A program made the position numbers and the translations under genes. From NCBI GenBank assembly GCA_947501215.1, contig CANMUS010000006.1, positions 62,001-126,000 of the forward strand: a DNA stretch of 64,000 bases, in the 5' to 3' direction. Shown one piece after another: positions 3,507-49,625 of the stretch (positions within the stretch are counted from its first letter, which is position 1; each line of letters opens with the position of its first letter). Origin of the DNA: an uncultured Erythrobacter sp. Its GTDB lineage: Bacteria; Pseudomonadota; Alphaproteobacteria; Sphingomonadales; Sphingomonadaceae. The notes beneath the pieces were generated by a model. The model searched no databases and was not told the DNA's origin. It saw only the letters and a list, made by a program, of their open reading frames with translations.

Positions 3507-3597
3507 CCGTTCGTGCTGAGCTTGTCGAAGCACCGCACTTTTTTGAGCACCGGTACAAAAGTTAAAGACGGCCCTTCGACAAGCTCAGGGCGAACGG
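3507..3597. repeat. Inverted pair of REP-like hairpin repeats (copies B1 and B2)
   Basis: Second pair of the 27-nt unit seen at 1466-1556, here between crtB and the carboxylase alpha gene. B1 is at 3507-3533 (minus orientation) and B2 at 3571-3597 (plus). The core CTTCGACAAGCTCAG and tail GAACGG are unchanged. The local stem is GTGCT/AGCAC in B1 and GCCCT/AGGGC in B2. With the A pair this gives three different stem sequences, all self-complementary, around one fixed loop. It may separate the crt transcript from the carboxylase transcript. Confidence 0.85.
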
Positions 3598-47725: not shown

Positions 47726-48070
47726 ATGAAGGCGACGATCTGGCACAACCCGAAATGCGGCACTTCGCGCAAGACACTAGCGATTCTGGAAAATCTGTCG
47801 AACGTCGATGTGACCGTGGTCGAGTATCTCAAGGACCCGCCGACGAAGGAGAAACTGGCGCAGCTCTATCGCGATGCGGGAATCTCTCCGGCGCAGGGCT
47901 TGCGGATGCGAGGGACCGACGCGGCGGAGCGCGGCCTGCCCGATGCCGACAACGACACGATCCTCGACGCGATGGTCGCCGACCCGATTCTGATCGGGCG
48001 CCCGCTGGTCGAGACCGACAAGGGCGCGCGCCTGTGCAGGCCGCAGGATACGGTGCTGGAGATTTTATAG
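47726..48070 (+). CDS. arsC: Arsenate reductase, glutaredoxin-dependent (ArsC/YfgD/Spx family)
   Basis: 114 residues. The catalytic Cys 11 lies in IWHNPKCGTSRK, followed by VVEYLKDPPTKEKL and the arsenate-binding PILIGRPLVETDKGARLCRP arm. It would reduce arsenate to arsenite using glutathione/glutaredoxin. CAGGAGAGG lies shortly before the ATG. No arsR, arsB or acr3 gene is adjacent, so it is not in an ars operon here and could be one of the YfgD-type paralogs of unclear function. Confidence 0.88.
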   Translation: MKATIWHNPKCGTSRKTLAILENLSNVDVTVVEYLKDPPTKEKLAQLYRDAGISPAQGLRMRGTDAAERGLPDADNDTILDAMVADPILIGRPLVETDKGARLCRPQDTVLEIL

Positions 48071-48083
48071 GGGGTTTTTGTTT

Positions 48084-48224
48084 GGTGCGGTCAGGACATC
48101 CGTCCTGACCTTGCTGTTCCGTCCCGCTCCCCCTCCAGACCACCCATGGCATTATACTGATTGGGTGGTCGGGAGGGGGAGCGGGACGGAACAGCAAGTC
48201 TTCGACGGATGTCGAAGGCGCACC
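48084..48224. repeat. 141-bp interrupted palindrome built of two inverted 62-nt arms
   Basis: Arms 48084-48145 and 48163-48224 are mirror partners around a 17-nt centre (paired positions sum to 96308). The inner 35 bp (48111-48145 with 48163-48197) match except at one base. Outer blocks also match: GGTGCG with CGCACC, and GACATCCGTC (48095-48104) with GACGGATGTC (48204-48213). The parts that do not match between arms are themselves local hairpin stems, GTCAGGA/TCCTGAC at 48090-48109 and CTTCGAC/GTCGAAG at 48200-48217, so each arm keeps its own hairpin with different bases. It lies between convergent arsC and MFS genes and could act as a bidirectional transcript end. Confidence 0.92.
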
Positions 48225-48266
48225 CAGCGAGGAAAACCCGGATGCGCTTTCCGCACTCGACTAAGC

Positions 48267-49625
48267 CTAGTTTCTATCTTTGGTCAGCGCGCTGTCGTGC
48301 TGGAGGCTGACCCAGCCATAGGCGAAGACGATGGCGCATAGCGCCACGATGAGGCCGAAGCCGAGCCAGTCGGAGTGGCCGTAAAGCCAGACGCCTAGCG
48401 CAGGAGCATAGATGAAGCTCGCGCCTGCAACCGAGGCGGTCACGCCGGAAGCCTGCCCTTGCTCGGCGCGCGTCACGGCAAGCGATGTGCCGGCAGTCGT
48501 CCCCGGCCGGAACAGGCCGAAGCCGAGCGAGGCGATGGCATAGGCCAGCGCGATCGAATGGAGATCGTCCGCCACGCCGAGGAAGGCGACCCCGAAAGCG
48601 GCCACTGCAATGCCGGACAGCGTGGCGGCGCGAGGGCCGAGATCGAATCGCGGGATCAGGCCCCATTGCGCGAGCAAGGTCGCGATCGCTCCTGCCATCA
48701 ACACCAGCCCAACAGGCCCGGCACCTTCTGCCGGCGTGTCCCGAAGGCCGAGGCGATCGAGCACGAGGAAGCCCGAGATACCCAGCACCATCGCCTGCGC
48801 ATGCCCGCCGAGCAGGCCGGCTATGACCCAAGGCCGCAACCGCGTTTCGAACCAGCGCAGTTTGTGCGGTTCGACGGCGTCTTCGTCCTCGTCTTCGTCG
48901 TCGCTGCCGGAGACTTCCGATGTCGGGCTGCCGGAATAGGGTGCGTCATAGGCCTTGCCGCGCGCGGGGTACTGCGGCGTGTCGTTCGGCAGTCGCAGGC
49001 GCAAGGCGACTAGCGCGAGGATGCCGATCACAGAAAAGATCAGGAACGGGCCGGTTAGCCCGACGAAGGGCAACACCATCAGCGGGGCCAGCGCGGGGCC
49101 GATCACCGTGCCGAGGCCGAAGCTGGAGGCGATCAGCGAGAGCGCCTGCGTGCGCTCGGATCGCGGAGTGCGCGCGGCGACATAGGCTTGCACCGCAGGC
49201 GGCGCGGCGCTGCCGAAGCCACCGTAAAGGCTCCGTGCGACGGCAAACAGCAGCAGTGCCCAGAAGGCCGTGAGATAGCCCGAGAGGCCGAGCCACAGCA
49301 TCGCGCCGCACAGCGAGAAGCTGGCGATGAAGCCGGTCAGCCCCAACGCCATCATCGCCTTGCGCCCACGCCGGTCGGACCGCTCCGCCCAGAACGGCGC
49401 GCAGATCACCCAGAGCAACGCCGACCAGCTGTAGGCGAGGCTGATCCACACATCGTCGATCTGCAGCGCCGTGCCGATCGAGGGCATGACGGATTGCATC
49501 GCCGTATTGCCCGCTGCCGTCACCAGCATGACGGTGAATAGCAGCGTCATCCGCTCGCGCGAGATGGCCCGCGGCATGGCGGGCTTGGCGGGCGCTACGG
49601 ATTTGGCGGGATCGACATCGGCCAT
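48267..49625 (-). CDS. MFS transporter
   Basis: 452-residue inner membrane transporter of the major facilitator superfamily with twelve helices. The motif-A-like loop between helices 2 and 3 reads AERSDRRGRKAMMALG (about residues 80-95). The central cytoplasmic loop is unusually acidic (SGSDDEDEDEDAVEPHK, about 240-256). PALAPLMVLPF and ASSFGLGTVIGPALAP resemble drug/proton antiporter motif C. Export of a drug or metabolite is likely, but the substrate is unknown. The gene stands alone. Confidence 0.88.
   Translation of the reverse strand: MADVDPAKSVAPAKPAMPRAISRERMTLLFTVMLVTAAGNTAMQSVMPSIGTALQIDDVWISLAYSWSALLWVICAPFWAERSDRRGRKAMMALGLTGFIASFSLCGAMLWLGLSGYLTAFWALLLFAVARSLYGGFGSAAPPAVQAYVAARTPRSERTQALSLIASSFGLGTVIGPALAPLMVLPFVGLTGPFLIFSVIGILALVALRLRLPNDTPQYPARGKAYDAPYSGSPTSEVSGSDDEDEDEDAVEPHKLRWFETRLRPWVIAGLLGGHAQAMVLGISGFLVLDRLGLRDTPAEGAGPVGLVLMAGAIATLLAQWGLIPRFDLGPRAATLSGIAVAAFGVAFLGVADDLHSIALAYAIASLGFGLFRPGTTAGTSLAVTRAEQGQASGVTASVAGASFIYAPALGVWLYGHSDWLGFGLIVALCAIVFAYGWVSLQHDSALTKDRN

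Follow-up and report, generated by a model that had tools for sequence, protein, structure and literature searches.

The 141-bp palindrome at 48084..48224 of the window (the whole 64,000-nucleotide stretch of DNA analysed here, from an uncultured Erythrobacter sp.) is one copy of a dispersed non-coding repeat family, which is multicopy and mostly intergenic and has a core common across Alphaproteobacteria. Many of its sites are common to close species, where stems and inner arms differ as blocks and the apex is found in both orientations. On balance, we think that the element is probably a chromosomal mosaic repeat of interchangeable modules (outer end, side hairpin, central arm and apex loop), whose copies would be reshuffled by ectopic recombination. 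Module exchange by recombination appears to be the best-supported mechanism as judged from the sequences.

Architecture of the element

The features of the element and its surroundings are as follows.

48084..48224, no strand: the entire palindromic element, both halves of the outer stem included (from folds, arm comparison and family members)
48084..48089, + strand: left half of the outer stem, GGTGCG, pairing with CGCACC at 48219-48224
48089..48110, + strand: left side hairpin with a 9-bp stem and the loop ATCC at 48098-48101 (from the fold; the stem covaries among copies)
48110..48146, + strand: left arm of the central stem, CTTGCTGTTCC...CCACCCA (stem table, row L001)
48147..48161, no strand: 15-nt apex loop, whose orientation varies among copies
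48162..48198, + strand: right arm of the central stem (stem table, row L001)
48198..48219, + strand: right side hairpin with the loop GGAT at 48207-48210, ATCC on the other strand (from folds)
48219..48224, + strand: right half of the outer stem, CGCACC (from folds)
48239..48257, - strand: remnant of an additional arm (AGTGCGGAAAGCGCATCCG), truncated past the loop (from sequence comparison)
47726..48070, + strand: flanking ArsC family gene (PF03960), with its stop 13 bases before the element
48267..49625, - strand: flanking MFS transporter gene (PF07690), convergent toward the element

The palindrome is real. Its two near-complementary arms, put at 62 nt in an earlier note on this DNA, measure 63 nt each (48084-48146 and 48162-48224), are 83% complementary and have 15 nt between them. 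The inner match, which the note gave as 35 bases with one mismatch, does have a single mismatch but extends over the 37 positions of the central stem (L001; G and L numbers are our genome and locus labels, and G000 is the genome of the window). The outer blocks GGTGCG and CGCACC are exactly complementary, as had been claimed. Each arm also forms a local side hairpin, with a stem of 9 bp instead of the proposed 7 bases: GGTCAGGAC-ATCC-GTCCTGACC on the left (48089-48110) and GTCTTCGAC-GGAT-GTCGAAGGC, with one unpaired position, on the right (48198-48219). Together, the outer stem, the two side hairpins and the central hairpin make a four-way junction, or clover, rather than a plain hairpin; passages of PMC3116915 propose a clover fold for REPINs. 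The RNA and DNA folds of the window element agree on this structure, and their z-scores are -14.8 (RNA) and -14.0 (DNA), with 0/200 shuffles equally stable in each. All 18 Rfam matches to the window element at E <= 1 were under the gathering cut-off; they comprised 17 microRNA precursors and one snoRNA, as is typical for any long hairpin. The core of the element contains GGG runs. The remnant arm at 48239..48257 is missing at the same site in the relative G843.

A dispersed repeat family

A search of the genome of the window with the 141-nt element returned 65 matching pieces. With a single-arm covariance model built from 34 arms, we found 59 matches in the same genome at E <= 10, and 45 of them, at E <= 1.2e-6, lie in 23 sites; the 14 weaker matches are excluded from this count. 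The earlier suggestion of a hairpin repeat joined head to head was right, and the repeat is present in many copies. Fourteen copies are complete, the window copy and 13 others of the same arrangement, one of which (L016) has a predicted fold that breaks the right hairpin. The remaining copies have only one arm, have arms in tandem or nested, or lack a centre.

Relatives carry the family as well. At E <= 0.01, 23/37 genomes of the genus (own included) contain 1 to 54 arms each, and 0/24 genomes from other families of the order were matched. In a sample of the bacterial family, searched with strict filters and at most 13 candidates scored per genome, matches at E <= 1e-5 were present in 64/397 genomes and 26/96 genera. 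An exact core pattern, CCCCCWCCCGRCCACCCA-N10-20-TGGGTGGYCGGGWGGGGG, occurs in at least 117 stretches of named genomes. The 80 matches listed are all alphaproteobacterial by their record titles and include Sphingomonadales, Rhodospirillales, Kiloniellales, Acetobacteraceae, Minwuia, Kordiimonadales and Hellea. The exact core was found in 16/385 genomes of a class sample (own included), with none for the reversed control pattern among the matches listed, and in 3/398 genomes of a phylum sample, all three within Alphaproteobacteria and none outside the class. These low fractions indicate that the core is patchy inside the class. Side hairpins and outer ends vary between groups, as judged by eye. 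In 106 copies, the 14 bases flanking the core pattern on each side still pair, without being required by the pattern (1296 Watson-Crick, 45 G-T and 143 mismatched cells). One genome of the class sample, G645 from another family, has 34 exact cores compared with 14 in the genome of the window.

Carriage by phages or plasmids was considered and rejected, as the core occurs in 0/50,697 phage and 2/72,556 plasmid records of the collections searched. Nineteen stretches with the exact core were seen in viral contigs (L312-L330), which may be phage or host DNA.

Covariation of the side stems

The earlier note saw that the two arms differ by changes that keep pairing inside each arm. This holds for diverged copies: 97.5% of 686 cells are paired in the 14 full copies, against 40-46% when the partners are slid. 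In 34 arms, all 94 cells that depart from the most frequent pair do so at both partners, and no cell does so at a single partner. In a larger set of 149 distinct arms (150/175 matches were aligned, drawn from 100 loci), 95.2% of 1335 side-stem cells are paired, with 1262 Watson-Crick, 9 G-T and 64 mismatched. Columns 10-13, the GTGC before the stem, are 94-96% conserved (141-144/150 arms per column). The 40 arms examined for stem type in the genome of the window have 15 distinct stems, five of which recur at 3 to 8 loci each. We suggest that the strong covariation of the side stems arises largely by block replacement and not base by base. The conserved pairing that the note described is thus borne out, but its reading as selection for structure is incomplete, since side stems mostly change by whole-stem replacement at orthologous sites (below). 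Because of this replacement, the unlike stems of the two arms alone are no evidence for base-by-base structural selection.

Different modules at the same chromosomal sites

The joined flanks of eight own sites were queried against 60 genomes of the genus (own included), and the orthologues were aligned. All eight sites are filled in at least one relative; the element is missing at the orthologous site in L253, L260, L263, L269 and L275-L279, and L247 has a remnant arm only. In the other direction, 20 element loci were drawn from four close relatives, and the flanks of 16 of them match those of an element site in the genome of the window; the four without such a match are L332, L338, L343 and L345. 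The genome of the window holds a remnant at the site of L332 and L345 and nothing at that of L343. In L338 (G843 C6:203960-204820) a full copy directly adjoins a putative tmRNA gene, recognised by its 3' end; at this site the genome of the window retains no more than a remnant.

To see how modules differ at these sites, we compared 31 own/relative pairs, of which 26 were kept; L331, L347 and L349 were excluded for an own copy without a centre (L034), and L246 and L348 for modules that could not be called. The flanks of the compared pairs were 85-97% identical, as measured on a single blastn hit for each pair. In the left hairpin, of 22 nt, there are at most 3 differences in 8 pairs, 4-6 in 2 and at least 7 in 16, while the right hairpin shows at most 3 differences in 11 of 20 callable pairs, 4-6 in none and at least 7 in 9; several of the 26 pairs share a site, so these comparisons are non-independent. 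As to the apex loop, 10 of the 26 pairs agree, 6 have it in opposite orientation and 10 differ in some other way. In five of the six inversions the left stem is changed as well, and these may belong to a larger replacement. In L262, compared with L018, the loop is exactly reverse-complemented and both side hairpins are retained. At site S002, G002 retains both side stems (one base lost) and has an inner arm of the other type, which indicates that modules can change singly. The window site itself, compared with G843 (L246), has a different left stem, a right stem that is the same except for one base, and two central pairs altered on both sides. Swapping is not universal, as the modules at the L007 site are unchanged in G000, G002 and G842 (L255 and L257 compared with L007).

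Other copies are rearranged. In L271 and L270 one element is nested in another, where it takes the place of the apex within the central stem, with the junction at CCCGG/AGTCTTTGTTG; L017 and L332 have additional outer right arms of the nested kind, and the centres of L032, L034, L369 and L371 are gone. Deletion, inversion and nesting are known fates of long inverted repeats.

We propose that modules pass between copies through ectopic recombination or gene conversion, which would be guided by the conserved blocks around the variable stem (GTGCG, stem-ATCC-stem and CTTGC). Recombination or template switching between the arms of one copy could keep the arms matched and flip the apex, and might also give the nested and centre-deleted forms. 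The family would have spread earlier through a putative trans-acting enzyme, and copies may persist where they are least harmful, often directly past stop codons. Donor copies and conversion tracts were not traced, and repeated insertion could also give unlike stems.

Mobilization and tolerance of palindromes

Repeated insertion is the core of a rival reading that we consider possible but doubtful: the family would be a foldback miniature transposon (MITE) mobilized in trans by a DDE transposase of the IS5 family, with unlike stems at one site produced by successive insertions, also into older copies. As IS5-type MITEs and foldback elements are generally known, the family resembles them in being nearly all inverted repeat, in the GAG-type ends of some copies and in its nested copies. 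IS5-family ends start with GAG or GGG, and their targets are TA or TNA. GAG-type ends such as CTAGAGCGTTTTC are enriched in class-wide flanks, with one such end, AGAGCGTT, present in 11/222 flanks compared with 1/4108 background pieces, and copies in the genus of the window end in GAGTCTTTGTTG. G000, G002 and G018 encode a PF13340 transposase domain, and one element with IS5-type ends and target was observed (L284). However, PF13340 is absent from five high-copy genomes (G005, G007, G014, G016 and G021), and in 30 PF13340 loci no transposase gene with GAGTCTTTGTTG ends was found by a search that required 13/18 end bases and can miss some. A target duplication was not demonstrable between filled and unfilled sites of the genus, where the surroundings of the junctions differ too much. 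Moreover, conservation across the class lies at the centre and not at the ends, unlike in IS5-type MITEs, and a parent element with these ends was not found in the 30 loci. A terminal-repeat finder, applied to 97 copies from across the class, proposed 30 candidates, of which many are due to chance.

SbcCD limits long palindromes in E. coli. We found that SbcD (TIGR00619) was over the cut-off in 0/61 genomes, with weak matches in four (G029, G038, G047 and G058); control genomes had a match in 13/14 cases and were over the cut-off in only 8/14, so a diverged SbcD could be missed. On this result, SbcCD-driven breakage was dropped as the motor of swapping, and the lack of SbcCD is a possible permissive factor for palindromes. 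Long palindromes are frequent in some of the 61 genomes without SbcD over the cut-off.

Genomic location and the rpsL-rpsG copies

Gene context was determined with a codon-usage gene caller, with a family check of the gene calls for the two window-flanking genes only. Of 24 own sites, 15 lie in tandem gaps, 4 in convergent and 4 in divergent ones, with the last inside a predicted gene, and 15/24 are at most 10 bases from a predicted stop codon. In a class-wide set of 88 deduplicated copies with 500 bases on each side, 86 are intergenic; 29 copies are in convergent, 39 in tandem and 18 in divergent gaps, with 1 inside a gene and 1 unclassified. For comparison, convergent gaps account for 14% of the intergenic bases at these loci, and divergent gaps for 34%. 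Convergent gaps are thus over-used (29/86 classed copies, p = 4e-6) and divergent gaps under-used (p = 0.006).

This distribution would suit hairpins selected as RNA, be it as terminators, mRNA 3'-end barriers or RNase III sites, a reading that we regard as unlikely, somewhat more so than the foldback transposon. Its attraction lies in the over-use of convergent gaps, in the closeness to stop codons and in the shielding of mRNA from exonucleases that passages of PMC12306157 report for REP sequences. The closeness to stop codons, however, would also result from purifying selection on insertions. The G-T share of the non-Watson-Crick side-stem cells is 9/73 (12%), not above the roughly 17-25% expected by chance under single substitutions, and therefore does not point to RNA-fold selection on the side hairpins. 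As for termination, the long stem is without a T run behind it, as an intrinsic terminator would have, and a terminator scan picked up no more than the two side hairpins, whose tails are poor (2 hits, where shuffles give 0.6).

The copies between rpsL and rpsG also speak for this reading. Loci were searched for motifs taken to mark the S12 C-terminus and the S7 N-terminus. Of the 23 rows obtained, 22 have a related hairpin element in the gap; L153 has a gap of 11 bases without the element. The element is present, in a diverged form, at 21 distinct loci from 10 genera (12 from the genus of the window and 9 from nine others), as listed here.

rpsL-rpsG loci: L020 (G000 C1:566409-566665), L043, L049-L056, L058, L068, L069, L074-L078, L080, L082, L084

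The gap of G205 (L074) is letter-identical to that of Qipengyuania flava (L118), of the same genus, and double cores are found in the own copy L020 and in L043, L054 and L068. The central stems span 22 to 37 positions and have 613 Watson-Crick, 21 G-T and 43 mismatched cells. At least two Watson-Crick types occur at 17/37 aligned positions, several of which depend on one or two out-of-register rows (L052, L075 and L082), the clear ones being columns 9, 14, 22, 26 and 27. Changed Watson-Crick pairs at one orthologous place indicate that pairing is kept while sequence varies, here across 10 genera. Paired substitutions at a fixed place fit structural selection or arm-to-arm correction rather than swapping. 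Nonetheless, the G-T share here (21/64) is a weak excess at best, and a strong terminator between rpsL and rpsG would do harm, which makes termination unlikely as the general function. In many of these loci the ribosome-binding site of rpsG lies in a small CTCC-GAA-GGAGT hairpin directly past the element.

For the window copy, a role particular to the ArsC-family gene is improbable; it would act as a 3'-end mRNA barrier or processing site at most.

Relation to known repeats

We also considered mobilization as a REPIN by a RAYT (Y1) transposase, which we judge highly improbable and largely refuted. Passages of PMC3116915 make the likeness plain, as REPINs are dispersed, extragenic, inverted doublets of short stem-loops for which a clover fold is possible. 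The earlier note had advised looking for a RAYT/IS200-like transposase, and this candidate did not materialize: the Y1/RAYT domain PF01797 is absent from eight high-copy genomes (G000, G002, G005, G007, G014, G016, G018 and G021, with 8 to 54 arms) and is present in only G022 and G026 of the 37 genomes of the genus. In passages of PMC3733652, REP and REPIN sequences have the tags GTAG or CGTC beside the hairpin, while the family here has GTGC before it. Finally, chance or independent palindromes with point-by-point compensation can be dismissed as refuted, as the two-arm comparison of the earlier note is all that speaks for them and they are contradicted by a multicopy family with covarying copies in the genome and its relatives, by the 0/200 shuffles of equal stability and by a class-wide core whose reversed control is missing among the matches listed.

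A mosaic repeat of interchangeable modules, the reading that we prefer, has counterparts among known repeats, so that the remark in the earlier note that the palindrome fits no nameable element type was overstated: in behaviour it resembles the BIME, REPIN and RIME palindromic mosaic repeats. RIMEs are alphaproteobacterial, intergenic, palindromic and mosaic, and so is the family here. RIME stands for Rhizobium-specific intergenic mosaic elements in passages of PMC2573895; unlike this Rhizobium range, the core is in no rhizobial record among the 80 matches listed. By the descriptions in passages of PMC3116915 and PMC3733652, the family is like REPINs and BIMEs in consisting of short, dispersed, extragenic inverted-pair palindromes that occur single, paired or clustered. 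As in REPINs, its copies are inverted stem-loop pairs, repetitive and extragenic, and, as compared by description with BIMEs and RIMEs, it is an intergenic palindromic repeat of recombinable modules. It differs from REPINs, as these passages present them, in having high-copy genomes without Y1/RAYT and no GTAG or CGTC tag, and from both REPINs and BIMEs in its 37-bp central stem with a class-wide core and in its block-variable side stems. A literature search did not find the core strings, and the family was not recognised in the literature searched on Erythrobacter or Sphingomonas palindromes, intergenic mosaic elements, G-quadruplex palindromes, RIMEs, BIMEs and gene conversion, rpsL-rpsG hairpins or SbcCD in Alphaproteobacteria. 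Compared by description, the family thus seems to behave closest to REPIN, BIME and RIME yet to fall outside REPIN membership, and it appears undescribed within the literature searched.

A broader picture, which we put forward tentatively and at less than even confidence, would be that of a class-wide clover cassette system, in which stationary copies swap whole stems, flip the apex and differ already at ~95% flank identity, are tolerated without SbcCD, and have one copy fixed at the rpsL-rpsG junction of the str operon. If swapping is real, the copies record in nature how very short repeats recombine ectopically, with a built-in read-out, since the stems are distinguishable cassettes. The family would then be a natural case for the study of bacterial repeat recombination, and the rpsL-rpsG copies a testable one, in which an essential operon keeps a repeat at a fixed position. 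It also carries a warning, in that block exchange can produce strong hairpin covariation, the usual argument for functional RNA.

The window contains another inverted repeat, CCGTTCG(G/T)GCTGAGCTTGTCGAAGC..., in two copies at 1465-1556 and 3507-3597, with arms of 34 and 29 nt that are 82% and 86% complementary, respectively.
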